Source of the DNA: Micromonosporaceae bacterium
Lineage (GTDB): Bacteria; Actinomycetota; Actinomycetes; Mycobacteriales; Micromonosporaceae
Direction: 5' to 3'
Assembly: GCA_016880465.1 (NCBI GenBank)
Contig: JAEHDK010000059.1
Coordinates: 1-42,836 of the forward strand
DNA length: 42,836 nucleotides
Shown: piece by piece, positions 8,040-28,895 of the stretch
Layout: each line of letters opens with the position of its first letter
Numbering within the stretch: the first letter of the stretch is position 1
The notes under the pieces: generated by a model
What the model was told of the DNA's origin: nothing
Databases searched by the model: none
The model's input: the letters and a program-made list of their open reading frames with translations, nothing else
Program-made: the position numbers and the translations under genes

Positions 8040-8768
8040 TCAACCCGAGTGGTCGGCATCGCTCGCCTCTGAGATCCGTTCGGAGCCGTCGACGATGGCC
8101 TTGGCGAGTTCGGATAGTCGACGGTTGCGGTTGCGGGCCTCGCTCCGGAGCACCATGAATGCCTTGTCCATGTCCAGTTGGAGGCGTTCGGCGAGGACAC
8201 CCTTGGCCTGTTCGATCAGGACGCGGCTGTTCAGGGCCGTCTGGAGTTGCTCGGTGAGGACGTCGCGGCGGTGGATGGCGCGCTGCTGCAGCAGTCCGAT
8301 CGTGGCCACGTCCGCCAACGCCTGACCGATCCGCACCTTGTCGCCATCAAGCGGACCGCGGCTGGTGTCGAAGAAGTTCAATGCGCCGATGACCTCGGTG
8401 CGTAGTCGCATGGGTAATGCGTGGACCGAGGCGAAGCCCACCTCGGCGGCGGCGACGGCGAACCCTGGCCAGCGGCCGGCGGCCGTGAGGTCGGCGACGG
8501 ATACCGGTTGGCCGGTGCGGAAGCAGTCCACACACGGTCCCTGGTCGGTCTGCAGCTGGAACAGCTCCAGCAGCCGGGTCCGTTCGGAGGAAGCGGCCAC
8601 TACCTGCAACGTGTCCTGCTGGTCGGTCAACAAGAGCCCGGCCGCCGAGACGCCGAGCAGTTGCACGCACCGCTGGGTCAGCACGTGCAGGAAGTCGATC
8701 ACGTCGAATTCGTCGACGAGAGTGTCGGCCATCTCTACGAACACGTCGGCTAGTTGGACCTCGGCCAT
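8040..8768 (-). CDS. GAF and ANTAR domain-containing transcription antiterminator
   Basis: A 242-residue cytoplasmic regulator. Residues about 10-165 form a GAF sensor domain (FLHVLTQRCVQLLGVSAAGL, then GPCVDCFRTGQPVSVADL, WPGFAVAAAEVGFASVHALP). The C-terminal 60-65 residues form an ANTAR domain (LQTALNSRVLIEQAKGVLAE, then a second helix and RRLSELAKAIVDG), the RNA-binding module that remodels terminator hairpins in nascent transcripts. The GPCVDC pattern holds two Cys that are common in this actinobacterial subfamily. ATG 8766-8768 has GGGGG about eight bases upstream; a GTG at 8786 is an alternative. A second GAF-ANTAR gene lies immediately upstream in the same direction. Confidence 0.93.
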   Translation of the reverse strand: MAEVQLADVFVEMADTLVDEFDVIDFLHVLTQRCVQLLGVSAAGLLLTDQQDTLQVVAASSERTRLLELFQLQTDQGPCVDCFRTGQPVSVADLTAAGRWPGFAVAAAEVGFASVHALPMRLRTEVIGALNFFDTSRGPLDGDKVRIGQALADVATIGLLQQRAIHRRDVLTEQLQTALNSRVLIEQAKGVLAERLQLDMDKAFMVLRSEARNRNRRLSELAKAIVDGSERISEASDADHSG

Positions 8769-8843
8769 CTCATTCACCCCCGGCACACATTAGTCCTGCG
8801 GTACGGGGCCGCCGATAGCCGCGCTGGGATCAGGCCGGTGGAA

Positions 8844-9581
8844 TCATCCACCTCGTTCGTCCGCGGCGCCCTCTGGTTCGGGGTCGAAGCGCAGGCGGCG
8901 GGCGACGACGTCGCCGGCCACGTCGTGCAGGCGGCGGTCATGGGCGTAGGCGTAGGCCCTCAGCCGGATCAAGGCCACCGCGGCGGTCACCCCCAGCTGT
9001 ACGGTGATCATGCCGGTTGCCTGGTGGACCTCGGGGTGCTCGGTCCCGGCCCGGGCCGGCCACCGTCCGGCCACTTCGGACCCGCCGGGTCGCGCCGCGT
9101 CGAGCAGCAACGCGCATGCCGTGTCCGCTAACAGCAGCGCGTCGGCCAGTCGCCTGCGCTGCAACTCTCCGGGCGTGCCGTGGTACAGGTCCATGACGCC
9201 GAGCCGCACGGCGCCGACCTGCAACGGGAACGCGAACACCGCCCGGACCCCGGCATCTACCGCCGCGGGCGCGAACATCGGCCAGCGGGCCAGACACTCC
9301 GCGGCGGTCAGGTCGGCGACCAGCGTTGGGCCGTTGGCGAGTGGGTCCAAGCCCGGGCCCTCGCCGACGGTCATCGCCAGCTCCCGCAGTTCCAAGGCGA
9401 TCTGATCGCTGGCGTACAGCGTCTCCCAGGGTGTGGCGGCCAGTTGCACCGCCACGGCGATCCGGTCGACGCCGACCGCCGACCTGACCGCGGCGCACAC
9501 GTCCTCGACCGCGACCTGCCGACCATGGGCGTGTTCGGCGACCAGCCTCCACAGCCGCATCCGGCGATCGGCGTTCATCAT
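8844..9581 (-). CDS. Second GAF and ANTAR domain-containing regulator
   Basis: A 245-residue paralogue-like regulator. The GAF part spans about residues 20-165 (VCAAVRSAVGVDRIAVAVQL, VGEGPGLDPLANGPTLVADL, WPMFAPAAVDAGVRAVFAFP, then VMDLYHGTPGEL). The ANTAR part is HPEVHQATGMITVQLGVTAA followed by RLRAYAYAHDRRLHDVAGDV and VARRLRF, with the usual conserved A-x-G-M-I and R-x-R-A-x-A/Y pattern. It differs clearly from the downstream GAF-ANTAR gene, so this is not a recent duplication. Two adjacent ATGs (9579-9581 and 9576-9578) are possible; neither has a strong ribosome binding site. The gap to the next gene is 75 bases, so co-transcription is plausible. Confidence 0.92.
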   Translation of the reverse strand: MMNADRRMRLWRLVAEHAHGRQVAVEDVCAAVRSAVGVDRIAVAVQLAATPWETLYASDQIALELRELAMTVGEGPGLDPLANGPTLVADLTAAECLARWPMFAPAAVDAGVRAVFAFPLQVGAVRLGVMDLYHGTPGELQRRRLADALLLADTACALLLDAARPGGSEVAGRWPARAGTEHPEVHQATGMITVQLGVTAAVALIRLRAYAYAHDRRLHDVAGDVVARRLRFDPEPEGAADERGG

Positions 9582-9874
9582 GACGCCTGATCCGGACACC
9601 GCGCCGTCAGCGACGACACCATGGGCGGCCGCCTCCGATACCTGAACGGTCCGTGAGGCCGCGACGGCGGGTGACGTAAGACAGAGACCGGGTCGAACGC
9701 AACTGCTGGTCGGCGGCTGGTCACCAAACACCCTACTCCGGCGATCCGCCGCGCACTCCCAAGGAGTGGTCCAGCGCACGGACGCCGCGGTCGCTGCCGT
9801 CGGCGATGGCCGTCGCACCCGCTTCATTCGTCCGGCCGCCGCGGACAGGGCGCCGAGCACGACGTTGCGTTGGT

Positions 9875-10025
9875 CGCCTTCTTGACTGCCGTCTTCATCA
9901 CCGACACCGATTCGCCCTGGCGCAGCGCGATCGTGTTGTTGACCCCGGTGACGCCGGTGATGTACATGACTGACCGGGCAGCGGCGTCGCGCTGGTAACC
10001 GAGGCGGCCCGCGTTGGGTAAGCTC
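9875..10025 (-). pseudogene. BON-domain protein fragment
   Basis: The minus strand reads YQRDAAARSVMYITGVTGVN followed by NTIALRQGESVSVMKTAVKKA. This fits the end of one BON domain (the R-D-A-A-x-R-x-V helix and the G-V-x-x-V strand) and the linker into the next in actinobacterial BON-repeat stress proteins. There is no start codon with a ribosome binding site, and the frame ends soon after. Such genes often sit near stress regulators, which fits the ANTAR neighbours. The rest of 9582-9875 is open in one frame but shows no homology I can name. Confidence 0.6.
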
Positions 10026-10099
10026 CATCCGCTGACGGCCCTAGGCTTAGAGCGGGCCGGGTCTCAGCCGGTTTGATTTGCCCGCTGAGAGGAGCGGCC

Positions 10100-11447: not shown

Positions 11448-11744
11448 TCATCGGCCGGAGCACGTGTCACAGATGTCGTGGCCGGTGGCGCGCTGAGTGC
11501 GGTGGTAAATCAGGAAGCAGCGCGAGCATCGGAACTCGTCGGAACGCATCGGCATGACTGCCGCGGTAAGTTCCTCGCCGGAAGGGTCCGGCGTACCCGG
11601 CTCGAAACTGCCGGCGGCCTCGGCTTCGTCTGGGTCGTCGGAGGACGGGACCGAGGGGGTGCGGATCTTGAGTTCATTCGGGCTGTCCTCGTCGAGGTCG
11701 ACCGTAGCCCGGCGCGGCGCGTCGTAGTCGATCGGCTTGCTCAT
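11448..11744 (-). CDS. DUF4193 family zinc-ribbon-like protein
   Basis: A 98-residue acidic protein of the DUF4193 family, conserved in actinobacteria with unknown role. It has the family layout: N-terminal YDAPR (7-11), an acidic middle with DEDSPNELK and a variable spacer, then GEELTAAVMPMRSDEF, and a C-terminal metal site with Cys73, Cys76, Cys92 and Cys95 (CSRC and CDTC). ATG 11742-11744 has GGGGAGG six bases upstream. The four-Cys arrangement implies a bound zinc ion and perhaps contact with RNA polymerase or nucleic acid, but that is inference. Confidence 0.9.
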   Translation of the reverse strand: MSKPIDYDAPRRATVDLDEDSPNELKIRTPSVPSSDDPDEAEAAGSFEPGTPDPSGEELTAAVMPMRSDEFRCSRCFLIYHRTQRATGHDICDTCSGR

Positions 11745-11863: not shown

Positions 11864-12841
11864 GTGCAGATGGGCCGTCGAGGGCAGCTCGGTGTCGGGG
11901 AACGCGCCGCCGACTTCGTCCTGAACGGTCCGGCTGGCGTTCCTGCGCGTTTCTACGCCCACGCCGGTGGTCGCCCCACGGCGGTGGTCTTCAACGGCGA
12001 TCGCTTCGACCCGCGACTGGTCGACCTCGCCGACCGGCTCGCCGGGCGTGCGGACGTCGCGCTGTTCTGCGTCATGTCGAAGGAGCCGGCTGGAGGCATC
12101 GGGCTTCCGGTGTGGTCCGACCCCGAGAGCACGGTCGCCGCCGTCTACGGGGTGACGGCTGGCGAACTAACCGCGGTCGTGCTCGACCCGAACCTGCGCG
12201 TCGTTGGCGTCGTGCTGGGCGACCGCCTCGCAGAGCAGGTTGTCGCGCTGCTCGACGGCGCGGTGTACCGCGGTCCTGCGGTGGAGGTGGTGGCGCAGGC
12301 GCCGGTGCTGTTGCTCCCTCGCGTCCTCAGCGCAGCCCACTGCGAGCGGCTGATCCGGGTGTGGGAACAGGAAGGCGGCATCGACACGGGCGTGGCCCGC
12401 GGGTCCGGTGAGGTGCTTGATGCTGGCTACAAGCGGCGTCGCGACCACACGGTCGGCGACCCGCGGCTGCTGCGCGAGCTTTCGTCGGTGGTCGGGCGCC
12501 GCGTACTGCCGGAGGTCACCAAGGCGTTCGCGTTCCGGGCGACCCGCTTCGAGGGATTCAAGATCGCCTGCTACGACGCCGCTGCCGGCGGCTTCTTCCG
12601 GCCGCACCGCGACAACCTGACGCCGTCCACGATGCACCGGGTGTTCGCGCTCACGCTCAACCTTAACGACGGCTATGAGGGCGGACAGCTTCGCTTCCCG
12701 GAGTACGGCAACCAGCTTTACCGGCCCGATGCAGGCGCAGCGCTCGCCTTCTCTTGTGCGCACTTGCACGAGGTGCTCGACGTGACGGCAGGTCGGCGCT
12801 TCGTGCTGCTGTCGTTTCTGTACGGCGAGCCGGCCGCGTGA
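11864..12841 (+). CDS. Redoxin-like domain fused to 2OG-Fe(II) (prolyl 4-hydroxylase-type) oxygenase
   Basis: A 325-residue two-domain protein. Residues 8-132 follow the AhpC/TSA peroxiredoxin fold (LGVGERAADFVL, then strands VALFCVMS, VAAVYGV, AVVLDPNLRVVGV), but the position of the peroxidatic Cys has none (VVFNGDRFDP), so this domain cannot act as a normal peroxidase. Residues 145-322 are a double-stranded beta-helix dioxygenase with the iron site FRPHRDN (His248, Asp250) and the distal His302 (AHLHEV), and Arg311/312 for 2-oxoglutarate. GTG 11864-11866 has AAGGTGA upstream with good spacing. Likely role is hydroxylation of a protein or small molecule, with the redoxin part perhaps binding a partner; the substrate is unknown. 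Confidence 0.88.
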   Translation: MQMGRRGQLGVGERAADFVLNGPAGVPARFYAHAGGRPTAVVFNGDRFDPRLVDLADRLAGRADVALFCVMSKEPAGGIGLPVWSDPESTVAAVYGVTAGELTAVVLDPNLRVVGVVLGDRLAEQVVALLDGAVYRGPAVEVVAQAPVLLLPRVLSAAHCERLIRVWEQEGGIDTGVARGSGEVLDAGYKRRRDHTVGDPRLLRELSSVVGRRVLPEVTKAFAFRATRFEGFKIACYDAAAGGFFRPHRDNLTPSTMHRVFALTLNLNDGYEGGQLRFPEYGNQLYRPDAGAALAFSCAHLHEVLDVTAGRRFVLLSFLYGEPAA

Positions 12842-13534: not shown

Positions 13535-14500
13535 TCACACGGAGATGACGACCTTCCCCCTGGCGTGTCCTTCCCCGAGGTACCCGAGAGCGTCGGCTGC
13601 CTCGCTCAGCTGGTAGTTCTTGTCTATGACCGGTCTCACCTTTCCGGCCTCGAGAAGCTCACGCAGGACTGCGAGATCCTCTTTCGTGCTTTTCGACACG
13701 AAGAAGGTCACTGTCTGGCTACGGCCACGTGACGTCAGAAGCGTTCCGAGGACGTGGGGCAGAGGTCCGAGCCCTCGATACGTCATCCGACCTCCGACCA
13801 GCACGACGGTCGCCTTTGGAGTCAACGCCCGTCTGAAATCGAAGAACGAGCGGCTGCCGGCGATATCGAGCATCAAGTCGTGACGGTCCCCCCGCTCCGT
13901 GAAATCCTCCTGCGTGTAGTCGACGACGCGGTCTGCTCCGAGTGACCGGACCAGTTCCACGTTCCTCGTGCTGCATACGCCAGTCACCTCCGCTCCGAAC
14001 GACTTTGCGATCTGCACCGCGAAGGTGCCGACACCTCCGGACGCGCCGTTGATCAGAACCTTTTGCCCCGGCTGGATCCGCCCCTTGTCGCATAGAGCCT
14101 GGAGCGCGGTGAGCGCCGCCACCGGTACGGCTGCCGCCTCCTCGAACGACAGGTTGGCTGGCTTCGACACGAGCCGATCTTCGCGGGCGCACGCGTATTC
14201 GGCCCAAGCGGCGCCCGACGTGCCGAAAACGTCGTCTCCCGGTTGAAACTCCTTGACGTCTTTCCCGACGGCTTCGACTCGCCCCGCCAAATCGGCTCCC
14301 ACGGTCTTCTGCTTAGGGTTGCGCAGCCCGTTGCCAATCCGTGAGAAGTACAGCCCGGTCACCTGATACCATTCGACTGGATTGACGGAAGACGCGTGCA
14401 CACGCACGAGCACCTCATGGTCCCCGACGACCGGTTTGTCGACCTCGCTGAGCTTCAGTACGCCGGGCGGACCGTATCGGTCGCGGATGATCGCCTTCAT
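13535..14500 (-). CDS. MDR-superfamily NAD(P)-dependent oxidoreductase (quinone reductase type)
   Basis: A 321-residue zinc-independent medium-chain dehydrogenase. The GroES-like domain (1-120) carries VRVHASSVNPVEW, GADLAGRVEAVG and the F-x-P-G-D-x-V-F-G motif; the structural and catalytic zinc Cys/His of alcohol dehydrogenases are absent. The Rossmann domain begins with VLINGASGGVGTFAVQIAK, GASGGVG at 152-158, as in quinone oxidoreductases. C-terminal HARGKVVISV is normal, so the gene is full length. It probably reduces quinones or enones with NADPH. ATG 14498-14500 has only a weak site (GCGAG). Base composition is AT-richer than the neighbours. It is alone, flanked by decayed sequence. Confidence 0.93.
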   Translation of the reverse strand: MKAIIRDRYGPPGVLKLSEVDKPVVGDHEVLVRVHASSVNPVEWYQVTGLYFSRIGNGLRNPKQKTVGADLAGRVEAVGKDVKEFQPGDDVFGTSGAAWAEYACAREDRLVSKPANLSFEEAAAVPVAALTALQALCDKGRIQPGQKVLINGASGGVGTFAVQIAKSFGAEVTGVCSTRNVELVRSLGADRVVDYTQEDFTERGDRHDLMLDIAGSRSFFDFRRALTPKATVVLVGGRMTYRGLGPLPHVLGTLLTSRGRSQTVTFFVSKSTKEDLAVLRELLEAGKVRPVIDKNYQLSEAADALGYLGEGHARGKVVISV

Positions 14501-16699: not shown

Positions 16700-17833
16700 C
16701 TAGCGCGCGAGCCAGGCGGACATCCGCTCGTCGAAGGCCGCCTTGCTGAACCCGGTCGCGTGCTTGGCGATGGCGTCCCGCGAGAGATCGTCGACGCGGG
16801 GGACGACCGCGGTGTACCCGGCGGGGTCGAGCCCGGAGACGAGAAAGCCCGTCTCGCCGTCCACAACGGTCTCCCGCAGGCCCCCCCGATCCAACCCGAT
16901 GACCGGCGTACCGCACGCCTGCGCTTCGACGGGGACGATGCCGAAGTCCTCGTGGGCCGGGTACAGCAGCGCCCTCGCGCCCCAGTACAGCTGGCGCAGG
17001 CGTTCGCGGTGCGGCTGTACCTCGAACCGGACCGGCACGCGCACCTTTGCCGCGGCGCGCCTCATCGCCGCCTCCTCCGGCCCGGATCCGGCGAGCACCA
17101 GAGGTACTCCGGCACGCTCGGCGATCTCGATCATGAGATCGAAGTTCTTGTAGCCGATCCAGCGCCCGACGCCGAGCAGGTAGTCGCGCGGCTGCGCCTG
17201 CTGGTCCAGCGGCATACCGGAGAAGTAGTCGGTATCGACCGGGGGATAGATGACCTCGGCGTCGCGGCTCCAGAACCGGCGGATGCGTTCGCGTACCTCG
17301 ATGGAGTTGGCCGCGTACGCGTGCACGTGCCGACTCATCCTCACGTCGACGCGCTGGAGCACGCTTCGCGGCCCGGACAGCAGTGCACCCGAACCACGAC
17401 CATCGAAGTCTGGACTCCACAGGTACCGCGCGGGCGTGTGCACGTAGCTCAGGTAGCGCGTGCGCTCGGGCGAACCGATCCTGACCGTATGCGCGAAGGC
17501 GTGGCTGGACGAGATGACGACATCGAACCGTTCGCGAGTCAGCGTGCGCCAGGCGAGCGGCATGACGGCTAGTGCCAATGCCTTCGTCCGGCGCAACGGC
17601 GTACGCGCCATCCACGACTGGCGCAGGTCTGTCCGGTCGACGTCCCGGTCGCTCCACAGCACGAAGCGCGTCGACTGTGGGACGAGGTCCGCGATGCTCA
17701 GGAAGACCGTTTCCGACCCGCCGGTCGCACCGAACCATTCGTGCACCACGGCTACGGATCGCCCGGCGAGGAGGGTCGAACCCACCCGGGCGGCCCCCTC
17801 GGGCACATGGATGTCCGTCATGCCCGTACTCAT
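16700..17833 (-). CDS. GT4-type glycosyltransferase
   Basis: A 377-residue GT-B fold enzyme. The N-terminal domain begins VAVVHEWFGATGGSETVF (donor/acceptor glycine loop), typical of GT4 mannosyl- or related transferases in polysaccharide loci. The C-terminal Rossmann domain has LLGVGRWIGYKNFDLMIEIA, then the nucleotide-sugar motif with EDFGIVPVEAQACGTPVIG, the E-x7-E pair, and ETGFLV. ATG 17831-17833 has GGGGG just upstream; the frame is open far beyond it but without homology. Divergent from the broken aminotransferase gene, with about 330 bases between. It is likely to add one sugar to the lipid-linked repeat unit in the cytoplasm. Donor sugar is unknown. Confidence 0.92.
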   Translation of the reverse strand: MSTGMTDIHVPEGAARVGSTLLAGRSVAVVHEWFGATGGSETVFLSIADLVPQSTRFVLWSDRDVDRTDLRQSWMARTPLRRTKALALAVMPLAWRTLTRERFDVVISSSHAFAHTVRIGSPERTRYLSYVHTPARYLWSPDFDGRGSGALLSGPRSVLQRVDVRMSRHVHAYAANSIEVRERIRRFWSRDAEVIYPPVDTDYFSGMPLDQQAQPRDYLLGVGRWIGYKNFDLMIEIAERAGVPLVLAGSGPEEAAMRRAAAKVRVPVRFEVQPHRERLRQLYWGARALLYPAHEDFGIVPVEAQACGTPVIGLDRGGLRETVVDGETGFLVSGLDPAGYTAVVPRVDDLSRDAIAKHATGFSKAAFDERMSAWLAR

Positions 17834-18164
17834 CCCCCAACGTCGCCGGTTAACTATTTGCGCGTTCTGCGGGTGGCCGGTGGCCCTGTGGTCGGCCAGC
17901 GCGGCCTCGCCGCGATGGACAGGTAGCAGAAGCGGCCCACCAACGCTGAACAATAGCCACGCGGGCACCTGCGTGTGACCCCGGGTGTTTGCTGCGGCCG
18001 AATGCGTCGCTATGCTTTCGGACGCCGGGTGGACAGCGGCGTGCGCCACCTACAGCGGGCGTCGGAAACGGGTGACGTCCCGTACGCTTTCGGAGCGCCC
18101 TGGGCAACCGCCGAGTGCGAGCCGCGTAGGCGTTCACCTGAAACCGTTCAACGGAGGTACGGGC

Positions 18165-19173
18165 TTGTCTACGGCGACCATCTCAGGAGAAATCGGCGAG
18201 CCGGCAGGCGCACCTACGCGTGGTATCCGATTCAGCGTGCCTCCATTCACCGATGGGGCGATCGCTAGCGCCACCCGGGTGCTCAGCTCGGGATGGGTGA
18301 CGACCGGTCCCGAGTGCCTGGCGTTCGAGGAGGAACTCAGCGAGTATCTCGGCCAGCCTCATGTGGTTTCGGTCGCGTCGTGCACCCACGCGCTCGAGTT
18401 GAGCTTGCGGGGTCTGCGCCTTGACCCAGGGTCGGTGGTCTTCACGCCCGGCCTGACGTTCTGTGGAGCGGTGGCCGCCATCATCCACGCCGGCTACCGA
18501 CCGGTACTCGTGGATGTCGATGCGAGCACGCTCACCCTGAGCGCACAAACCGTCGTCGAGGCGGTACATCATCATGGCAAACCCGCCGCTATGGTGCTCT
18601 GCGACATGGCGGGCTATCCGGTCGACAGCGCGGCGCTGGCCCGGGCGGCGGGGATTCCCGATGCTCGGGTAGTGGTGGACGCTGCGCACGGTCCAGGCGG
18701 AGAGGTCGGCCGCCACGCAGCCGCCAACACACCCTTCGCTGAGCTTCTACTCCACGAAGAACCTTCCGGTCGGCGAGGGTGGCGCGATCGCGACTCATGA
18801 TGAAAAGTTCGCCACCTGGGCACGCTCCGCGCGCCTCCTCGGAATGAGCCGCGATGCGTGGCGCCGCTACCTACCTGGCGGATCGTGGCGCTACGATGTG
18901 CCGGAGGTCGGGTTCAAATGCAAACTCTCGGACCTGCAAGCGGCCATCGGTCGCGAGCAGCTGCGCGGGCTGCCGGGCTGGCGGCCCCGTCGGGCGGAAG
19001 TCTTCGGCCGGTACGACGCGGCCTTCGCGGACCTGGTTACTTCGGGTGACATCGTGATGCCAGACCGTCATCCTGGACACCCGCTACACCTCTACCAGAT
19101 CCGCGTACGCCAGCGCGACGGCACGACGTGCCAGCGGCATGAAATGCTAGCCTCGGTCTTCGCTAACTGTTGA
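18165..19173 (+). pseudogene. DegT/DnrJ/EryC1-family sugar aminotransferase, frameshifted and C-terminally truncated
   Basis: A PLP-dependent enzyme that would transaminate a keto-sugar nucleotide. TTG 18165-18167 is the start, with GGAGG eight bases before. The first frame covers IRFSVPPFTDGAIASATRVL, the T-G-P loop, FEEELSEYLGQPHVVSVASC and the PLP-phosphate region VVDAAHGPGGEVG. Around 18715-18742 the frame shifts; the second frame continues LSFYSTKNLPVGEGGAI with the internal aldimine Lys in STKN, and YDVPEVGFKCKLSDLQAAIG. It then stops near 19171 instead of running another 60 or so residues. The end abuts a transposase tail, so an insertion cut the gene. Not functional as sequenced. Confidence 0.85.
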
Positions 19174-19430
19174 TCAAGGCTTTGCCCACGCTTATAGATC
19201 TTCACCGGTTGGTCGATTTCGGTGAGGCGTGGCGATGGCCCGAAGCGGTGGTCGGGTTCCTCCGTGGCGTGCTCGTCGGGGCGTGGGGTGGCGACTCAGG
19301 TAGCGAGTTGGGTAGTGCGGCGAGCCGGTTGAACGCGGTGACGAGTTGGTCGGCCCAGGGCCAGCCCTCGGCGATGCGCAGCCGGGTGCGGCGGGCTGGG
19401 TGGGTGGGGCTCGGCGTCGAGCCCGACGAT
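19165..19430 (-). mobile_element. DDE transposase C-terminal relic at the aminotransferase break
   Basis: The minus strand reads HPARRTRLRIAEGWPWADQL then VTAFNRLAALPN. A tail of this form (R-L-R-I-A-x-x-W-P-W, then a helix and A-L-P) is found at the end of several actinobacterial DDE transposases; the exact family is uncertain. On the plus strand, TTGATCAAGGCTTTGCCC at about 19169 may be the outer end of the element. It directly follows the truncated DegT gene, and the next glycosyltransferase stop codon lies only two bases or so beyond its other edge. Confidence 0.5.
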
Positions 19431-19431
19431 A

Positions 19432-20574
19432 TCACTGAGTTCCGACACGATTGATCACAGCGAGAAGCTTGACCGCACTCTGTTCCCACGTAAACGCCCT
19501 AGCCCGCTCGAGCCCCTTGCGGCGCAGCTCATCGGCCAGGGCGGGGTCATAGAGGACCTTCTCGATATGAAGGGCGAGCGCAGTAGAATCATGTGCGTCG
19601 ACCAAAATCCCGGCATCCCCCACCACCTCCGGGAGAGACGAGTTATCGGACACAATCACCGGAGTATTGCACGCCATTGCCTCCAATGGCGGCATCCCGA
19701 AACCTTCATATAGCGACGGATAGACAAACAGCGACGCGCCACTGTAGAGAGCCGGTAGATCCTCGTCCGGCACGTACCCGGTCACGATGATATCCAAGTG
19801 TTCGAGTGCGTCCAGCTGAGCCTTGATCTCGCGGTCGAGCCAGCCCTTGCCCCCGGCGAGCACCATCGAGAACGAGTCACGTACCTTCGGCGACAGCTCG
19901 GTGTAGGCGTTCAGAACACCCGCGATGTTCTTTCTCGGCTCCAGTGTCCCTGTGTACAAAATATAGGGCTTGACAATGGTGTATTTCTTCGCGACCGCAT
20001 CAATCTCGTGCTGCGGCCTAGGGTTGAAGAAGTCGTGATTGATCGCTGGGTTGATAACGGTAATCTTGTTGGGATCGGCGCCATAATACGATACTATCTC
20101 GTCCTTTGCGTTCTGGGAGACAGCAATGATGTGCTGCGACTTCTTGATCGTCGCCGGCACGTAGCGAGTGAGGAACTGGCGATTTCTGCGGGCTGTGTAC
20201 TGGCCATGGAGCACGAAAGAGAGGTCGTGAATAACCGCCACCGATCGGCTGCCCAGCGGCAACGGATAGCGCACGAAGTTGGGGAAGAAGAACACGTCAG
20301 GGCGGCTTCCCAGCATGACATCTATGGGTGGCGCCGCTAACTTGCGAACGATTGCGTTGAACAGTTTCGAGGGCAAGTACCGTATGAAGCGGTAGCCGAG
20401 CCGCGGGCTCTCCGGGATTGGCGTTTGTTTTGTCCTGCCTAGGAACAGAAAGCCGAAGATCGTGTAGTGGTTGGTCTTATCGAGGCGAAAGAGCGCTTCT
20501 AGCAGATTCTTGGTGTAGCGGCCCACACCGGTGTGCTTCCGGAAGATGGGCGTTCCTTCAACAAACACCTTCAT
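19432..20574 (-). CDS. GT4-type glycosyltransferase
   Basis: A 380-residue GT-B enzyme. N-terminal MKVFVEGTPIFRKHTGVGRY with the G-V-G-R-Y acceptor loop, and VAVIHDLSFVLHGQYTARRN. The C-terminal domain shows YILYTGTLEPRKNIAGVLNA, VTGYVPDEDLPALYSGASLF and YEGFGMPPLEAMACNTPVIV, the E-x7-E motif, then SLPEVVGDAGILVDAHD. This is the WbaZ/mannosyltransferase type common in O-antigen and EPS clusters. The ATG at 20572-20574 is used because homology starts there; the longer frame (TTG 20643) would overlap the upstream gene. It is markedly AT-richer than the flanks, so transfer is likely. It is co-directional with the next gene, 43 bases apart, and probably one operon. Confidence 0.93.
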   Translation of the reverse strand: MKVFVEGTPIFRKHTGVGRYTKNLLEALFRLDKTNHYTIFGFLFLGRTKQTPIPESPRLGYRFIRYLPSKLFNAIVRKLAAPPIDVMLGSRPDVFFFPNFVRYPLPLGSRSVAVIHDLSFVLHGQYTARRNRQFLTRYVPATIKKSQHIIAVSQNAKDEIVSYYGADPNKITVINPAINHDFFNPRPQHEIDAVAKKYTIVKPYILYTGTLEPRKNIAGVLNAYTELSPKVRDSFSMVLAGGKGWLDREIKAQLDALEHLDIIVTGYVPDEDLPALYSGASLFVYPSLYEGFGMPPLEAMACNTPVIVSDNSSLPEVVGDAGILVDAHDSTALALHIEKVLYDPALADELRRKGLERARAFTWEQSAVKLLAVINRVGTQ

Positions 20575-20617
20575 GGTTATAGAACTGCTCCCGTCATATG
20601 TTCTGATTGACGCATGC

Positions 20618-21748
20618 TCAGGTTTGGACACATCTTTTTCCAACGTCCATATACAGCTGGTGGGTGGCCTCCGCCGTCTTCCGCCACGAAAACATCTTTA
20701 TACGCTCCCGCCCCCTAGCAGACAGCTCGGACAACAGTCCGGGCTGTTCGAGAAGGTCGATGATATTGTGCGACAAGTCGCCGGCGCTAAGAGGCTCGAA
20801 GTATACCGCAGCATCCCCGTATACCTCGGGCAGGCAGCTCGCTCTCGAGGCGATGACCGGTAATCCTTGGGACATGGCCTCGAGGCCTTGCAACCCGAAC
20901 CCCTCGGATAGCGACGGGTTGACGAATATCTTGCAGTTGCGGTAAAGCCACTTGAGTTGTCCGTCGGTAACGAACCCAGGCATGACCACCCGGTCGGACA
21001 GCCCCAGTGTCTGTATTAACGCGACCAGGTCGGCTTTGAACTCATCCGCTTTGCCGGCCAGCAACAGTTTCAGATCCGGCCAAGCTTGAGCGACAAGGCC
21101 TAGCGCCTCGATGACAGTTCTCACATTCTTGTACGGATAGTAGTTGCCGACATAGAGCAGGCACATGTCGGGGGCGCCGAGATCCGGCATGCACTCCTCC
21201 TTGGCCTCAGTCAAATGGTCTGAGTCGGCGGCAAGCCACGCAGTGCAGATCTTTGCACGATCGATCTCGAAACGCTCGACGAGCTGCTGCTTCACGTATT
21301 CGGTGACCGTGACGACACGCGTGGCCGTGGCGATTTGTATAACGAGGATAAGCCGGAACGGGATTCGCTTTAACTTCGTAAACAGGCGCCTTCGCAGAGA
21401 GCCGCGGCTGGTGTCGTATTCGAGCAGCGTCAAGTCATGGACGGTCACAACCTTGCGCCCCATGTAAAGAGCGGCGGCATTTGGAGTCAAGAGGTGGACG
21501 ACATCCGGCGACAGTCTATTGAGGAGTCTGGGTAGTTTCGTTTGCTCGGCCAAGGAATACGGCTCAATATTGCATTCGACGCGGGCAAAATTGCTCGCCT
21601 GCGGCTTCCATTTGGACCAGTCGGAACGGCGCACCAGTACAATGTAGTCGTTGTTCTTATCGATCGCCTCTAGCCCTTCCAGCAAGGAAAGGGTGTACCG
21701 GCCGACACCGGTCCAGGAGAGCATTCTCCCGTCGACCACGATCTTCAT
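20618..21748 (-). CDS. GT4-type glycosyltransferase
   Basis: A 376-residue GT-B enzyme. N-terminal MKIVVDGRMLSWTGVGRYTL, then VVHLLTPNAAALYMGRKVVT and VHDLTLLEYDTSRG; the C-terminal domain has LLYVGNYYPYKNVRTVIEAL and SEGFGLQGLEAMSQGLPVIA (E-x7-E), followed by SCLPEVYGDAAVYFEP. It is a full-length relative of the neighbouring gene but clearly not a duplicate. A TATAAT element is only nine bases upstream of the ATG, which implies a very short or absent leader. AT-rich composition as in the neighbouring gene. It probably heads a two-gene unit for consecutive sugar additions. Confidence 0.93.
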   Translation of the reverse strand: MKIVVDGRMLSWTGVGRYTLSLLEGLEAIDKNNDYIVLVRRSDWSKWKPQASNFARVECNIEPYSLAEQTKLPRLLNRLSPDVVHLLTPNAAALYMGRKVVTVHDLTLLEYDTSRGSLRRRLFTKLKRIPFRLILVIQIATATRVVTVTEYVKQQLVERFEIDRAKICTAWLAADSDHLTEAKEECMPDLGAPDMCLLYVGNYYPYKNVRTVIEALGLVAQAWPDLKLLLAGKADEFKADLVALIQTLGLSDRVVMPGFVTDGQLKWLYRNCKIFVNPSLSEGFGLQGLEAMSQGLPVIASRASCLPEVYGDAAVYFEPLSAGDLSHNIIDLLEQPGLLSELSARGRERIKMFSWRKTAEATHQLYMDVGKRCVQT

Positions 21749-21756
21749 GGCTCGCC

Positions 21757-21762
21757 ATTATA
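21757..21762 (-). promoter_or_regulatory. Possible -10 element just upstream of a glycosyltransferase
   Basis: A perfect TATAAT on the minus strand ends eight bases before the ATG at 21748. A start site about seven bases downstream of it would give a nearly leaderless transcript, which is common in actinobacteria. No good -35 was seen at 17 bases, so support is weak. Confidence 0.3.
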
Positions 21763-22029
21763 GGGCGTCGTGATGTAGTGCCCTACCCGGGCGGCCGCAG
21801 GGAGGCCTCGATACTCCTCTTGGCGCGGAGGCCGTTGACCCAACACCAGGGAGTTAAGCGTTGGCCCAGGTCAGCCGGCCTGGCGTATCGACGATAGTCG
21901 TGGCGTGCCCCGGCTCATCGAAGATCTTTGGATCGCCTTGTCGGCCTCTTGATGAGTTCGTCCGATTTGCGCGTGGCAGGCGTCGATGGCGTCGATAACA
22001 TCTACCTGGACCGGTTGGACCAGTACATC

Positions 22030-22265
22030 GACCGGACCCTAGTGCAACGGCTCCTGGCCAACGCCTGCGAACTATGCAGGTCGACGCAACGACGCAACAG
22101 GTGGACGTGCACCACGCGCGCGCCCTGAAAGACCTCGGCCCCATGGGGCCGCCAGCACCCACCGGAATGGGTCGTGCGGATGGCCGCCCGCCGCCGCAAG
22201 GCGCCCTGATGGTCTGCCGCGTTTGCCACGAGAACGTCCACGCCGGACGTCCTACACGGCGCCCA
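22030..22265 (+). pseudogene. Group II intron maturase C-terminal (HNH) relic
   Basis: The plus strand carries the C-terminal endonuclease end of a group II intron reverse transcriptase in three frames: LVQRLLANACELCRSTQ with the first Cys pair, VDVHHARALKDL with the HH of the HNH motif, PEWVVRMAARRRKA, and MVCRVCHENVHAGRP with the second Cys pair. Known proteins of the family have C-E-x-C, V-H-H-x-R-x-L, M-A-x-R-x-R-K and C-x-x-C-H-x-x-I/V-H in the same order. At least two frameshifts separate them. The intron RNA 3' end follows directly. Confidence 0.8.
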
Positions 22266-22279
22266 CGGTGAGCACTGGA

Positions 22280-22315
22280 GAGCCGGATGCCACGGAATTC
22301 GGGCACGTCCGGTTC
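22280..22315 (+). ncRNA. Group II intron domain V (3' end of intron relic)
   Basis: The sequence begins GAGCCGGATGCC and ends GGGCACGTCCGGTTC, pairing to form the short hairpin of group II intron domain V with the catalytic AGC near its 5' side. Canonical bacterial domain V is GAGCCG-stem-loop-CGGTTC of about 34 nt; here it is 36 nt. It lies just downstream of the maturase relic, as in real introns. Following bases to about 22350 include CCCTGC..GCAGGG, a possible domain VI stem. Confidence 0.75.
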
Positions 22316-23274
22316 GGCGGGGGACCATCGGAAAAGGCCCTGCCTAGCAGGGACCTCGTCGGCGGCATACCCGACGTTTACGTACGGATCTGTGGGGCGG
22401 GTGAGACTCCAGCGCCTACCCGGCGGCCGTTACCCTCGTGGTGGACGTCGTGAAATGCACTGAAAACGTCGAGTGGGGATCAACAGGACGTCGGCGAGTG
22501 GGTCGCTGCCGAGTGTCATTGTCCGGTTCAGGCCACATCGAAAAGTGCTGACCTCTGCACTGCTCCGTCGTGCGCGGCCGCACGCGCCGGCCTTGCCTTC
22601 TCAGCACGGTCGGTTCACGTCTGATTACGAGACGTGATGGGGTTGGTTATACAGCGTCGGACTGGTAGCTGTGCAGCACGAACCATAGGCAAGGGCCGCC
22701 ATGGCGTCGAAACTACGCGAGTGGCCGCAAACCGGCGGGCGAGGATCATGATTCAGGTGAACCGTACCACGTCAAGGTGGCCATGGAGGCCGATCCGCAT
22801 CGCAGCCGACGCGTCGGTGCATTCGGTCTCATGACCACCGGATAATCCGATACCTTCGACCCGACCGAGGTGGCCTGGCGAACGATGCACTCGAGGCGCC
22901 ACCAGCGCCTTTGGTGATCGGGTCCTCCGCCACACGACGCCTGCGCGAATGCCCGCGGGCCTCCGTCGGCGATACAGATGCCGTACCGTATCATGCCACG
23001 GTCACTGATCGTAGCGGTCACACCTGATGTCGCCCTGACGTGGGCGGCCCAGGTCAAGCCCATCATCGTAGATAACGATGGGATCGTTCCGTACAGCCAT
23101 GGTTCTCATCAAGGAGCACTGCATGCCAACCGCGACCACCTCGACCAGGCGCTCCCTGGTCGTCGTCACGGAACCTCGACCGGTGCGGCGCTCCGGTCTT
23201 GGGTCATACACTCGACTCCGCCAAACCCAGGCCGACTAGGGCAAACGCCACAGAAGATCGGGGCGGTAGTAGTG
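22316..23274. other. Stretch without an intact gene inside the polysaccharide locus
   Basis: The left end is the putative domain VI and 3' boundary of the group II intron (near 22350-22380). Beyond it, open frames on both strands show no family match. The ORF that leads into the polymerase gene is open from 22978, but its first 99 codons look noncoding. Promoter of the polymerase-flippase-glycosyltransferase unit should lie in the right part. Confidence 0.35.
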
Positions 23275-24708
23275 ATGGCCACGGTGCAACACCTATTCTC
23301 TGCGGTACGGTCGTCCGACCACCGTCGGACGACGGCCCTCTCAGACGCTCTGTTTGCGGCGGGCCTCGTGTTGACCGCACTGATAATGCCCCTCGACAGG
23401 GTGCAGAACCTGGCCACCCGTCCCCCGTATCTTTCGCTCATCGCTCTGTTGCTGCTGTTGCAGCGCGGGCTCGTTTTGGCATGGGACTGGTTTCGCAACA
23501 AGAATCGCTTTCGGCCGCGAGCCGACCTCGCGGCGGCGTTCTTCTTACCGGCGATAGCGGCGGGTGTGGCGTCCGTCACGGCCTACGACAGCAACGTGGC
23601 AATAGCCGCGACCATTCTCTTCTGTTTCGTGCTACTGCGGGGCTGGGCCTTGGCTCAATATGTTCGTCAGAACGACCTTGAGCTGTTTGAGGACATTCTG
23701 CCGTGGGTGGCCGGGGTGGTAGTCGGGTTTGGTTACTACCAGTACATAGGCGATGTCCTTGGTCTTCCGCAGTCGTGGACCCTGCTCAGGGGGTCCTACA
23801 GCTCCATCGCGACCTACCCGTTCCCGAGGGTCCAATCGTTTGCGCTTGAGCCGCTCTATCTGGCCCACTACCTCTTCTTGCCGATCGGCGTGCTACTGAT
23901 TCGCTTCCTGCGCAGAAGGAGGGCGCCACTCGTAGAGCAGATCGTACTGATCTTCACTCTCGCGCTGTTCATGTTGAGCTTGTCCCGTGGCGCGATCCTG
24001 GGCCTCCTTCTCGCTGTGGTCCTCATGCTGGTCGTGGGGCGCTCCTGGCGCCTGCTCGGGTACTTCGCAAAGACCACGGGACTCGCGCTCGTGATCGTCT
24101 TCGCGATGCTCTTGTTGGCGGGAGTTGCCCAGAATGCACGGACGTCCGTCACGCCGAGCACCGAAGGGTCGGCGGGCACGACCGGAACAGTTGGTGCCTT
24201 TACCTCACATGCCGTTGACCTGAATGATGGTTCTGCTCGCACCAGATTCGATCTCTGGCCGCCGACGATCAAAATATTCACTGAACACCCACTCACCGGG
24301 GTGGGTCCCAACAATTCGCGCTTGCTATTGCACGATGGTGCCAACTCGATCTCGACCGGCGAGGCCAATAAGCTGCAGCCAGTGAACAACGATTACCTGG
24401 CGTATCTCAGTGAAATGGGCCTGGTGGGTTTGCTACTGACCCTGCCCCTGATCTGGTTCGTTCTGCGAGCGTTGTGGGGTGTCGTACGTGCTCGGCTCGA
24501 CCATCCGTCCAGCCCTTACGCATTCGCGCTCCTGGGAATGGCCTTTGAGGCAAACGCGTTTCATTCGCTCCTGCTGTTGAGGACCTGGGTGGTCATTGCG
24601 CTGCTTGTCGCGGGGGCACGGTTGGTCAGCGAAAACCACCAGGACCAACAACTGGGTGGTCATCTCGTACCGTCTCGGGAAGGCCTCGCGGGGGCTCGGC
24701 AACTATGA
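23275..24708 (+). CDS. O-antigen ligase/polymerase (Wzy-like) membrane protein
   Basis: A 477-residue polytopic protein. About a dozen hydrophobic segments include LSDALFAAGLVLTALIMP near the start, LSLIALLLLLQRGLVLAW, LLIRFLRRRRAPLVEQIVL and the pair around LALFMLSLSRGAILGLLLAV. The stretch LSLSRGAILGLL and the periplasmic HPLTGVGPNNSRLLLHDG are the two hallmark regions of the Wzy_C/O-antigen ligase family (R and H residues in the large loop). It would link lipid-carried repeat units into a chain outside the membrane. Start ATG 23275-23277 is preceded in frame by GTG and a GGGGCGG site. Downstream flippase 102 bases away is the usual partner. AT-richer than flanks. Confidence 0.88.
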   Translation: MATVQHLFSAVRSSDHRRTTALSDALFAAGLVLTALIMPLDRVQNLATRPPYLSLIALLLLLQRGLVLAWDWFRNKNRFRPRADLAAAFFLPAIAAGVASVTAYDSNVAIAATILFCFVLLRGWALAQYVRQNDLELFEDILPWVAGVVVGFGYYQYIGDVLGLPQSWTLLRGSYSSIATYPFPRVQSFALEPLYLAHYLFLPIGVLLIRFLRRRRAPLVEQIVLIFTLALFMLSLSRGAILGLLLAVVLMLVVGRSWRLLGYFAKTTGLALVIVFAMLLLAGVAQNARTSVTPSTEGSAGTTGTVGAFTSHAVDLNDGSARTRFDLWPPTIKIFTEHPLTGVGPNNSRLLLHDGANSISTGEANKLQPVNNDYLAYLSEMGLVGLLLTLPLIWFVLRALWGVVRARLDHPSSPYAFALLGMAFEANAFHSLLLLRTWVVIALLVAGARLVSENHQDQQLGGHLVPSREGLAGARQL

Positions 24709-24810
24709 CCGGGCTGCATACTGCGGCGAACTCAGCCGACACGGCGGTACTGGCGTCAACCATGACACCTCGGCTCGGTGGGACTCGTGACCTAGGCCGC
24801 TTTGGCGCTT

Positions 24811-26115
24811 ATGAGCACTGATCAAATGGAGCGGGTGCGACAATTCTGCGGCAGGGTAATTGCGCTGGTAGGCACGAGGACTGCCCGCTCCTCTATGGTG
24901 ATCTTTGCCGCCAGTCTGTTCTCGGCAGCCATGGCTTTCGTAGTGGCGTACTTTGCCACGAGGGTCCTCGGCCCCGAAGACTACGGTCGTTTCGCCACGA
25001 GCAACGCCATCGTGGTTATCATGGTTGGTCTGACCGACTTCGGAGTTTCCACCGCGCTTGTCAGGTTCACCAGCTGGCAGCTCAGCAACAAACCGCGCGT
25101 GGCCCCGTACTTCCAGGGCGCCTTCCGTCTTGAGCTGGCGGTCGGGTTACTGATCTTGGTAACCACTCTGTTCACTCCGCAGATTGCAGACTTCCTGGGC
25201 GGCCCCGACATGAGGCTGCCGACATACATAGGACTCATCTCCAGCTTCTTCCTGTCGATTGGGGCCTACGCCAACGCAATATTGCAAACGTACCAGCGCT
25301 TTAAGCTCATGGCCTCCCTCAATGCCGTGTTCTCTGCATTGCGCACGGTACTGTTCATATCCTTAGTCATGACATCCGCCCTCGCGCTTGCGACCGCCCT
25401 GTTCGCGAACCTCGTCGTGGCGGTGTTGACGCTCATGGTCGGCCTCATCGTGATACCAAGAACGGGCGTTCGTGCGTCCTGGGCCGATCAGAAACACGCT
25501 CTCGGGGAGATGTACGGCTTCGGCAAGTGGCTGATCGTTTCGTACTCACTCAACGCCGTGCTGTCTCGGCTCGACCTCGTTCTACTGTCTCACTTCCGCC
25601 CCGCCCTGGAAGTAGGGCAATACGCGGCTGCACTCCAGCTCGCTAGTTTTATGCCCCTGCTGATGTCGTCGCTGACGACGGTCTTGATACCGAAGATATC
25701 GGTTCTTTCGGACAGGGAGGTCCGGTCGTATCTGCGTAAGACACTGTTCGGTGCGACTGTGGTCGGCGTGCTTCTCGTGCCCATTGTTCTTCTGGCTGGG
25801 CCGCTCATCGACATCGTCTTTGGTGGCCATTACGCGAACGCGGTCTTGCCCTTCCAGTTGATAATGGCAAGCTTCATCCTCACGCTCTTCATCAATCCTC
25901 CGAGTCTACTGTTCTACAAGTGGAATAAGCCGAGCATCCTTACATACATGAACGTGACAACCGGCAGCACCATGGTGTTGCTCATGTGGGTGCTGACCCA
26001 AGGATTTGGTGCCGTTGGTGCGGCATCAGCACTCCTTATAAACACCGCCTTTGCTGGGTGCGTGTTCACGATCTTGTTACGCTACCATCTCCGAAGGATT
26101 GAAGTTGCGCATTGA
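24811..26115 (+). CDS. Wzx-type polysaccharide flippase (MOP family)
   Basis: A 434-residue, about 12-14 helix transporter of the polysaccharide-transport MOP superfamily. It starts with a cytoplasmic basic part, then SMVIFAASLFSAAMAFVVAY and the family-typical ATRVLGPEDYGRFATSNAIV. Later FGKWLIVSYSLNAVLSRLDL, VGQYAAALQLASFMPLLMSS and the second-half helices end at VFTILLRYHLRR. It would flip lipid-linked repeat units from inner to outer leaflet. ATG 24811-24813 is chosen; a TTG nine bases upstream is the alternative. The stop overlaps the next gene's start, so translation is likely coupled. Confidence 0.92.
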   Translation: MSTDQMERVRQFCGRVIALVGTRTARSSMVIFAASLFSAAMAFVVAYFATRVLGPEDYGRFATSNAIVVIMVGLTDFGVSTALVRFTSWQLSNKPRVAPYFQGAFRLELAVGLLILVTTLFTPQIADFLGGPDMRLPTYIGLISSFFLSIGAYANAILQTYQRFKLMASLNAVFSALRTVLFISLVMTSALALATALFANLVVAVLTLMVGLIVIPRTGVRASWADQKHALGEMYGFGKWLIVSYSLNAVLSRLDLVLLSHFRPALEVGQYAAALQLASFMPLLMSSLTTVLIPKISVLSDREVRSYLRKTLFGATVVGVLLVPIVLLAGPLIDIVFGGHYANAVLPFQLIMASFILTLFINPPSLLFYKWNKPSILTYMNVTTGSTMVLLMWVLTQGFGAVGAASALLINTAFAGCVFTILLRYHLRRIEVAH

Positions 26116-27217
26116 CAGGGCCCTTCGCGTTCTGCTGGTTTCCACACCTTCCGAAATCGGTGGCGGCGAACGCTATGTCGAACTGCTGGTGAGGCATCTG
26201 CCAGCGACGTTCGCCCTATTCACTCAGCACAAGGAATTCAGGTCCCTGGCGTTAGGGTGGGGGATTCCGGCGTGGCACCTCGTTGGTAGTGTGAAGCTCT
26301 ACAGCAGATGGCATCTCCGGTTCTTTGCTCTGCTGTTACCCCTGTATTGGCTCCAATACTGCGTACTCTTCCTTCGATGGAGACCGGACATCGTGCATGT
26401 TCAGTCGAACGAGGAGAAGATATCCGTTGCGCTGCCGGCAAGAGTATTTAAGATACCCGTGATATGGACTATGCACGGCCCGATTGACGTCACCGGAAGC
26501 CGACTATACGCGGGATTGTTCGAACGGTCCGCTGCCCACGTCCGTTCCGTTGTCTGTATCTCAGAGTACGTCAAGAGGTCTTTGCTGGAGACCGGACTTG
26601 ACGCTCGAAAGGTTCTCGTAATTCCCAATGGAGTCGACCTGACGACGCATGAGTTTGGGCACCACGGAGGCCGGTATGTGACCTTCTTGGGAAGACTCGA
26701 GGAGGTCAAGAACCCTAGGCTCTTTGTCAATTCGTGTGTTGCTGTGGCAGCTCACTACCCGCAAGCCCGGTTCCGTATCATTGGTAGCGGAACCCTGGAA
26801 CCTGAGCTTCGGGCCATGGTTCGGCAGGCTGGCATGGAACGATCGTTTTGTTTCGAGGGTTGGCTGTCTAACCCCCGCCCGCTCCTTCTTGAGGCTTCCG
26901 TCTTGGTTGTATCTTCTGATGTCGAGGGTCAAGGTTTTTCCGCGATAGAAGCGATGGCTCTAGGAGTGCCGGTAGTGGCCACGGCTGTCGGGGGCTTGGT
27001 AGAGGTTATTGATGACGGTTCTACGGGCATCCTGTGTCAGCCCCGAAGCGTCGAGTCGGTCTCTGCGGGCATAGCGCGCGTCTTGAGCGACGATAAGCTC
27101 GCCCAACACTTGGCCCGCTCCGCACGAATTAAGGTTGAAGCCAAATACTCCCTAACGAGCATGATCGCGGGTACGGAACAGGCATACGCGGAGGCGGTTC
27201 GTGCGAAAGCCCACTAG
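26105..27217 (+). CDS. GT4-type glycosyltransferase
   Basis: A 370-residue GT-B enzyme. N-terminal LLVSTPSEIGGGERYVELLV with the glycine-rich acceptor loop; C-terminal VTFLGRLEEVKNPRLFVNSC, FCFEGWLSNPRPLLLEASVL and SDVEGQGFSAIEAMALGVPV, with E-x7-E, then EVIDDGSTGILCQP. TTG 26105-26107 is taken as start because AAGGA lies six bases before it and homology begins a few residues later; the frame is open further upstream inside the flippase gene. The 11-base overlap with the flippase and the 17-base overlap with the next gene point to one coupled operon. Confidence 0.9.
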   Translation: MRIDRALRVLLVSTPSEIGGGERYVELLVRHLPATFALFTQHKEFRSLALGWGIPAWHLVGSVKLYSRWHLRFFALLLPLYWLQYCVLFLRWRPDIVHVQSNEEKISVALPARVFKIPVIWTMHGPIDVTGSRLYAGLFERSAAHVRSVVCISEYVKRSLLETGLDARKVLVIPNGVDLTTHEFGHHGGRYVTFLGRLEEVKNPRLFVNSCVAVAAHYPQARFRIIGSGTLEPELRAMVRQAGMERSFCFEGWLSNPRPLLLEASVLVVSSDVEGQGFSAIEAMALGVPVVATAVGGLVEVIDDGSTGILCQPRSVESVSAGIARVLSDDKLAQHLARSARIKVEAKYSLTSMIAGTEQAYAEAVRAKAH

Positions 27218-28307
27218 CATACTGTATGTCCGGCCCAACCAGGGCGGGGTGCGCATTTATAGCGACCTGATGCTTCGGCCCTTAAATCAGAGCGCAGAGT
27301 TGGACGTCGAGAGCCTCCTGGTCGAGGAACGCACATCTTTGGGAATCATGCAGGGCCTGCTTCTTGGGTTGCGGCTTGCTTGGAGCCGACAGGACGCGCT
27401 CTACATTGAACTCGGCGCTCACGGTACTCGTACAGCCTGGGCGATGTTGGTTGTCGGGGCCTTAGGAAAGAAATACTTCCTGACGGTGCACGATGGCGCG
27501 ATCGTCGTCGAGACGATGTTTCCCTTTACCGTCCTAAGGAGTCTTCCGAAACCAATCTGCAGTGTCGCCAATCGCTTGTCCCGACTCGCAGACGCGATGT
27601 TTAGGCGCCGTCTCCTGAACCGTGTGATCGATCAGGCATCGGCCGTGTTCTCCTTAGCGCCCGCCCAGGTGGTGTTTGGTCGACGGGCCAAGTATCTGCC
27701 GCCTCCTTCGTACGTTAAGCAACAGCACACCTACGTTCAGCCGATGACTCCGGTTGTCGGATTTGTGGGGTTCTGGGGCGGCGCCAAGGGCATCGAGACC
27801 CTGACACGCGCACTGGCGTACCTCCACGACGAGGGTTTGACGTGCCGCGCGATCATCGGCGGGTCGACCGGGGATATCGGGGATTCCTATTCGAGGGCGA
27901 TTCGGAAGTCGGCCTCACAGTTGAGCCTTGATGCGGAGTTCCCTGGGTTCATCCCCGATGATCGCATGGAGTCTTTCGTCGGTGGCTTGAGCGTACTCGT
28001 AATTCCCTATTTACGCGAGCATCCGGCCAGCTCGAGCGGGGTCGCTGTGTGGGGCTTGTCGCTGGGTGTTCCTGTGGTTGCTTCGGATATACCTGCGCTG
28101 AGGCGGCAACTAGGTAACAGCGCGGTCTACTTTGAGCCGGGCAATTCCATGGAGTTGGCCGCAGCGTTGAGGTCCGTCCTGAACGACCGGGAGGTCGCTG
28201 TTAAGCGCGCCCGGGACGGCCAAGCGCGGTTCCATCATGAGCACAGCGATGAAGCCATAGGCCGGTTGGTAGCTGAGTACATTACGGACTCAATGGCGGC
28301 GCCATGA
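27201..28307 (+). CDS. Divergent GT-B glycosyltransferase
   Basis: A 368-residue GT-B-like protein. The N-terminal half (LYVRPNQGGVRIYSDLMLRP, YFLTVHDGAIVVETMFPFTV) and the C-terminal Rossmann half (VVGFVGFWGGAKGIETLTRA, FPGFIPDDRMESFVGGLSVL, GLSLGVPVVASDIPALRRQL, AVYFEP) follow the GT4 plan. The usual E-x7-E pair is altered: the position reads EHPASSSGVAVWGLS, so the second acidic residue is missing. It may use a different donor contact or be inactive. GTG 27201-27203 overlaps the previous gene by 17 bases. It is the last intact gene of the operon. Confidence 0.85.
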   Translation: MRKPTSILYVRPNQGGVRIYSDLMLRPLNQSAELDVESLLVEERTSLGIMQGLLLGLRLAWSRQDALYIELGAHGTRTAWAMLVVGALGKKYFLTVHDGAIVVETMFPFTVLRSLPKPICSVANRLSRLADAMFRRRLLNRVIDQASAVFSLAPAQVVFGRRAKYLPPPSYVKQQHTYVQPMTPVVGFVGFWGGAKGIETLTRALAYLHDEGLTCRAIIGGSTGDIGDSYSRAIRKSASQLSLDAEFPGFIPDDRMESFVGGLSVLVIPYLREHPASSSGVAVWGLSLGVPVVASDIPALRRQLGNSAVYFEPGNSMELAAALRSVLNDREVAVKRARDGQARFHHEHSDEAIGRLVAEYITDSMAAP

Positions 28308-28387
28308 TCGCCGCCGACAATCAGGTCGTCGGATGAGGGTGCCCCGCTCGGCGCTGGGTGATCCGGCGGGCCGCTATACGAGTCGAT

Positions 28388-28480
28388 TCGCGAACTCACC
28401 CCCAATACCTGACCTTCCTAAACGACCTCGCCACCGTAGTCCGCTCACAGGGAGAACTCACAAATGCGATCGACCTTCGC
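28388..28480 (+). pseudogene. Possible TPR-repeat protein fragment
   Basis: About 30 codons on the plus strand read HPQYLTFLNDLATVVRSQGE followed by LTNAIDL, similar to a single repeat of actinobacterial tetratricopeptide proteins (H-P-x-x-L-x-x-L-N-x-L-A-x-V ... Q-G-x-L-x-x-A-I-x-L). No further repeats follow and no start is present. The match is short, so support is modest. Confidence 0.4.
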
Positions 28481-28571
28481 TGGCGCTCCTACGCCGAGGT
28501 CGACGCCGACGAGCGCGACCCGGTGAACCAGCCCGATGGCGGCAAGCTGTTCGGCGACCTGAAGTACAGGT

Positions 28572-28854: not shown

Positions 28855-28895
28855 GCGGGCATCATGGGCCTGGGACGCGCGGCCGAGCCGCCCGC

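Follow-up and report, generated by a model that had tools for sequence, protein, structure and literature searches.

What does a peroxiredoxin fold that has lost its catalytic cysteine do in front of an intact oxygenase? The question is raised by a single gene (11864..12841, +) on a stretch of 42,836 nucleotides from a Micromonosporaceae bacterium, the whole of which is referred to here as the window; the source genome is a draft assembly of 808 contigs and 5.5 Mb. The ORF begins with GTG, encodes 325 amino acids and has a coding-like GC3. Based on the ORF list, Pfam, a structural model and orthologues, the product consists of a degenerate peroxiredoxin domain followed by an Fe(II)/2-oxoglutarate (2OG) oxygenase domain. 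A preliminary description had recognised the fusion of an oxygenase with a redoxin domain that lacks its peroxidatic Cys, and had proposed that the two are coupled in a redox-linked protein hydroxylation. The fusion of a Cys-less redoxin to an intact 2OG oxygenase is borne out by model, profiles and alignment; the redox link finds no support.

The gene is patchy within the window's own family, where a full or split copy is found in about 7 of 355 genomes. Named orthologues belong to Micromonosporaceae and other actinobacteria (Rhizocola, Virgisporangium), and in other actinobacteria they are 66-78% identical to the window protein. The fusion itself is present in Actinomycetota, Latescibacterota, Gemmatimonadota, Cyanobacteriota and Pseudomonadota. 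Matches at E<=1e-15 were obtained in 19/244 genomes of a Cyanobacteriota sample and 20/398 of a Pseudomonadota sample, these being raw tallies in which a few matches are partial or cover a single domain. On viral contigs the best match spans the oxygenase domain alone, and there was no redoxin-oxygenase fusion among the matches listed. Tandem fusion genes (L064, 1492-2535 and 2346-3620) lie in a genome from the Pseudomonadota sample (G648), and six other genomes (G380, G379, G381, G405, G528, G536) carry two distant copies each. The redoxin-oxygenase fusion is thus a real and widely distributed bacterial enzyme family. It is apparently unstudied so far: a literature search, which did not extend to subscription papers, found nothing relevant on fusions of a redoxin or peroxiredoxin with a 2OG oxygenase.

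The N-terminal domain (residues 9-137; 11888..12274, +) has a Bcp/AhpE-type (AhpC/TSA) fold without catalytic residues, as judged from the Pfam matches of relatives, profiles and structure matches. With the window sequence alone, Pfam and NCBIfam report only the oxygenase domain, the redoxin part being too weak, and it became recognisable because relatives were brought in. The Pfam family AhpC-TSA matches the N-domains of 12 of 13 relatives at E<=1 (best 5e-14), and a profile of N-domains finds Bcp, AhpE and ResA structures in the PDB (best 9e-11). An AlphaFold2 model of the full chain, for which the input comprised 34 homologues, has a pLDDT of 88 and a pTM of 0.84; comparison of residues 9-137 of this model with known structures gives Z 16.9 for Bcp1 and Z 16.1 for AhpE. 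Modelled in isolation, the N-domain is predicted to be fully folded and resembles Bcp1 (3drn; Z 17.1, rmsd 1.9 A over 129 residues) and M. tuberculosis AhpE (Z 15.8), and structure prediction therefore agrees with the redoxin-like fold proposed earlier. The domain has the fold of Bcp/PrxQ and AhpE peroxiredoxins (3drn, 5id2, 5epf; Z 15-17), but it lacks their peroxidatic Cys and the Thr of TPxC and has a shorter loop at the active-site Arg. Judged by these residues, it is not a peroxidase.

In the motif FYPxxxTPxC the peroxidatic Cys comes nine residues past the FF/VF strand, as in FF-YPAAMTPGC of BcpB. The ninth residue past F43 in the window protein is Leu52, with no Cys there or nearby, and Asp49 takes the place of the Thr; in the alignment D49-P50-R51-L52 (12008..12019, +) replaces TPxC. 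The active-site Arg loop of Bcp/BcpB, ahead of the tFxID strand, faces a gap in the profile alignment, where the register comes from the profile only, and residues 95-106 of the window protein contain no Arg. The peroxiredoxin-site Arg is apparently gone as well.

The alignment comprises 76 full-length homologues, among them the window copy; the counts exclude the row L038, which is frameshifted, and hence have n=75. The peroxidatic-position Cys is missing in 69 of these 75, which come from five phyla, so that its loss is more general than a single sequence could reveal and concerns most of the whole family. The close relatives in actinobacteria also lack it, and since orthologues of 66-78% identity share the absence, it is neither chance nor error. 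Cys is the rule in peroxiredoxins, which gives the change its polarity, and six homologues keep the residue at the exact position; loss from an active-type ancestor is therefore the natural reading. Five of the six come from the cyanobacterial sample (L090-L094), one of these having a canonical TPDC, and one from the Pseudomonadota sample (L070). A maximum-likelihood tree calculated with the trait columns removed implies a minimum of two Cys changes, the tree being unrooted and its deep branches weakly supported. Only G12, G36 and D86, the last of which looks structural, are conserved at >=85% in the N-domain (n=75), and thus nothing visible stands in for the lost chemistry.

The C-terminal domain (residues 143-323; 12290..12832, +) is a double-stranded beta-helix (DSBH) 2OG oxygenase according to Pfam and structure matches. 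Residues 233-319 match 2OG-FeII_Oxy_3 (E 1.2e-12, 49.1 bits against a cut-off of 27), and in the VIA comparison residues 143-323 reach Z 17-19 with an algal prolyl 4-hydroxylase (P4H), Pseudomonas P4H-EF-Tu, Shewanella PKHD, PiuC, PHD2 and LH3. Both folds of the chain are thus supported by prediction and profile. The complete 2OG-Fe(II) site noted in the preliminary description holds across the family. The Fe ligands H248 and D250 of the HRD motif (12605..12613, +), which aligns with the PKHD HxD, and the third ligand H302 (12767..12769, +) are found in 75/75 homologues; R312 (12797..12799, +; H+10), the Arg binding the 2OG C5-carboxylate, aligns with the PKHD Arg and is found in 74/75, one row being truncated. 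R259 (12638..12640, +), present in 75/75, corresponds by sequence to the Arg that prolyl hydroxylases have at the mouth of the active site (PHD2 Arg322). A loop of low confidence (residues 171-190; 12374..12433, +; pLDDT 57-59) lies ahead of strand 193-196. PHD2 and the Chlamydomonas P4H (CrP4H) have a mobile finger loop (PMC4396695), and in the model residues 171-190 would occupy the place of this beta2-beta3 loop, a position that hints at a peptide or protein as substrate. Two cysteines of the oxygenase domain, C160 (12341-12343) and C236 (12569-12571), are conserved in 69/75 and 62/75 homologues, respectively, and would be a likelier site for any thiol-based regulation than the redoxin domain.

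The window protein is thus an uncharacterised variant of an enzyme kind that is already known. We suggest, with middling confidence, that it is an Fe(II)/2OG hydroxylase of the PKHD/prolyl-hydroxylase superfamily in which the dead peroxiredoxin fold helps with the binding or placement of the substrate, this probably being a protein or peptide. The oxygenase domain would use O2 and 2OG, bound via H248/D250/H302 and R312, to hydroxylate this substrate and release succinate and CO2. The peroxiredoxin fold would serve as a rigid companion, most likely binding or positioning the substrate over the oxygenase pocket, which the flexible loop 171-190 would close. The hydroxylase chemistry is what the family leads one to expect; we likewise infer the docking role of the N-domain and the macromolecular nature of the substrate. 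Since the reactive Cys is lost, the redoxin domain is probably a scaffold or docking part and not a redox device, and this is the best-supported account of the fusion. It is favoured by the invariant 2OG site, the hydroxylase matches at Z 17-19 and the dead site in most of the family. Counting against it are the lack of an operon partner, a glycosyltransferase (PF11397) fusion seen only once, Phe245 and a stand-alone oxygenase, all of which are considered below.

By sequence and Foldseek, the closest solved catalytic domains are PKHD-type (YbiX/PiuC). The PKHD hydroxylases YbiX, PiuC and Sbal_3634 (3dkq, 9qn0, 9ghl) have the same fold, the HxD...H plus Arg site, a Phe at H-3, and the GGxL..xxYGxQ and LHxVxPVxxGxR stretches of the window protein; unlike the latter, they have no peroxiredoxin domain. 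All members of alignment A1 (34/34) match the YbiX/PiuC NCBIfam models, whereas the window protein, at 31.2 bits against a cut-off of 143 for the equivalog PRK05467, falls far short. For PiuC the proposed substrate is an imported siderophore monosulfactam (summarised in PMC12004943). These relationships favour a different substrate for the same chemistry, namely a small molecule, for instance a siderophore or some other secondary metabolite; the redoxin domain would then be either a structural relic or a platform for oligomerisation. The active site offers a further point in this direction. All P4Hs have a conserved Tyr at H-3, counted from the first His (Tyr310 in PHD2, Tyr140 in CrP4H; PMC4396695), where the window protein has Phe245 and 74/75 homologues have Phe; by this criterion it is not a canonical P4H.

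The genomic context speaks against the small-molecule substrate. ybiX and piuC adjoin TonB receptor genes (PMC12004943), but translations inspected by eye revealed no TonB-dependent siderophore receptor near the gene in the window or at eight actinobacterial orthologue loci. Outside the actinobacteria, a Niveispirillum homologue has a TonB receptor 2.4 kb away. A Gnt1-type fusion in one homologue, described below, also points to a protein. We regard action on a small molecule as a genuine though doubtful possibility.

Protein hydroxylation by the window protein is possible, at the level of a guess, its fold family having protein hydroxylases among its members. The prolyl hydroxylases (P. putida P4H acting on EF-Tu, 4iw3; Chlamydomonas P4H, 3gze; PHD2) have the same DSBH fold (Z 17-19) and, apart from the Tyr that is replaced by Phe245, they have in common with the window protein a flexible loop ahead of the HRD strand and the pocket-mouth Arg, the latter being shared by prolyl 4- and 3-hydroxylases (PMC4396695). 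OGFOD1/Tpa1 similarly pairs a metal-binding catalytic oxygenase domain with a second domain against which it packs (PMC4396695), and OGFOD1 matches at Z 16.6; its partner, however, is a C-terminal second DSBH, whereas that of the window protein is an N-terminal peroxiredoxin fold.

A lead towards a protein substrate comes from a genome of the cyanobacterial sample, in which a 753-aa ORF (L100, 1363-3621, -) joins a PF11397 GlcNAc transferase (204 bits), at the N-terminal side, to the AhpC-TSA and 2OG oxygenase pair. PF11397 is the family of Skp1 Gnt1, whose substrate is the hydroxyproline that a prolyl hydroxylase has formed. The fusion suggests that a protein residue is hydroxylated and then glycosylated, and the chain is possibly an enzyme for both steps in succession. 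In combining a GlcNAc transferase with the redoxin-oxygenase pair, the L100 homologue resembles the Skp1 hydroxylation-glycosylation pathway (PhyA, Gnt1), and LH3 too couples hydroxylase and glycosyltransferases; the window protein, in contrast, has no glycosyltransferase domain. PF11397 was found in 2 of 51 family-bearing genomes and fused in one; the search covered these 51 and two phylum samples, and because a single fusion appeared overall it is a hint, not a pattern. Speculatively, and with rather little likelihood in our estimate, the family might perform bacterial protein hydroxylation with the dead peroxiredoxin fold as substrate recruiter, joined in at least one cyanobacterium by a GlcNAc transferase of the Gnt1 type, which would add its sugar to the new hydroxyl, in parallel with the oxygen-dependent Skp1 hydroxyproline-GlcNAc pathway.

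The actinobacterial genes look monocistronic and were found to have no conserved neighbour or operon partner; a promoter scan, uninformative for actinobacteria, detected no promoter. In the window the gene lies between those for a DUF4193 protein (11448-11744, -) and a zinc-type dehydrogenase (13535-14500, -). The dehydrogenase was rejected as a partner: it is near only one orthologue (L006, 36% identity) and too common to weigh. Recurrent neighbours do exist in Latescibacterota (an extracellular solute-binding protein, an M42 peptidase and an aldo-keto reductase), and a DUF6785/DUF6784 protein recurs beside the gene in Latescibacterota and Gemmatimonadota. These are lineage-specific and missing from actinobacteria, and were taken as shared regional ancestry, not as a functional operon. 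In Rhizobium leguminosarum WSM1325 (L105, 9989-13763) the gene is about 0.4 kb from a DoxX/DUF692/DUF2282 cluster on the other strand, which looks like a copper-type peptide-modification (bufferin-like) operon. Elsewhere in the window, translations indicate an exopolysaccharide-type cluster (16700-31826) with several glycosyltransferases, O-antigen ligase-like and flippase-like membrane proteins, a LytR-CpsA-Psr-like protein and a sugar transferase, as well as two adjoining GAF-ANTAR type regulators (8040-10028, -), the second confirmed by Pfam.

Is the redoxin domain needed at all? It might be a dispensable remnant, the protein being in effect a lone 2OG oxygenase. The N-domain is short, indel-rich and diverges fast, with a mean pairwise identity of 26% compared to 50% for the oxygenase domain, and one genome (L071) codes for a stand-alone oxygenase domain lacking the redoxin, so that the N-domain is not strictly required. 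Nevertheless, nearly all homologues across the five phyla retain it, and a fully folded domain is predicted. Comparison of the window copy with seven orthologues from actinobacteria gives a dN/dS of about 0.2-0.4 for the N-domain and 0.14-0.21 for the oxygenase, which indicates purifying selection on both domains although the N-domain evolves faster. Lower conservation combined with purifying selection fits an accessory, non-catalytic role, and a mere remnant seems unlikely.

Along the lines of the preliminary description, the redoxin part could be a sensor that links redox state to the hydroxylation of a protein; this view fares worse. The fold is truly redoxin-like, and the six Cys-keeping homologues would suit such a role. 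However, Cys, Thr and apparently Arg are gone from the window protein, the redoxin domain has no conserved redox residue, the alignment of 75 homologues shows no compensating conserved Cys in the N-domain, and no conserved redox partner gene was seen next door at the loci inspected. We consider redox sensing very unlikely.

Sequencing error or a pseudogene has a practically negligible chance and was rejected, as the window ORF is intact, its close orthologues also lack the Cys and dN/dS is well below 1, the only precedent being frameshifted homologues in other draft assemblies (L038, L073/L080) and nothing at the window locus itself. Such draft copies (L038, L073/L080, L103) are broken by frameshifts or stops, through either error or decay.

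In plasmid records members of the family are annotated as '2OG-Fe(II) oxygenase', a name that conceals a fusion kept across phyla. The rare members that keep the Cys provide a direct test of the conversion of a redox enzyme domain into a scaffold. If the dead peroxiredoxin domain does recruit the substrate, then the N-domain would be a handle for finding new targets of hydroxylation in bacteria.
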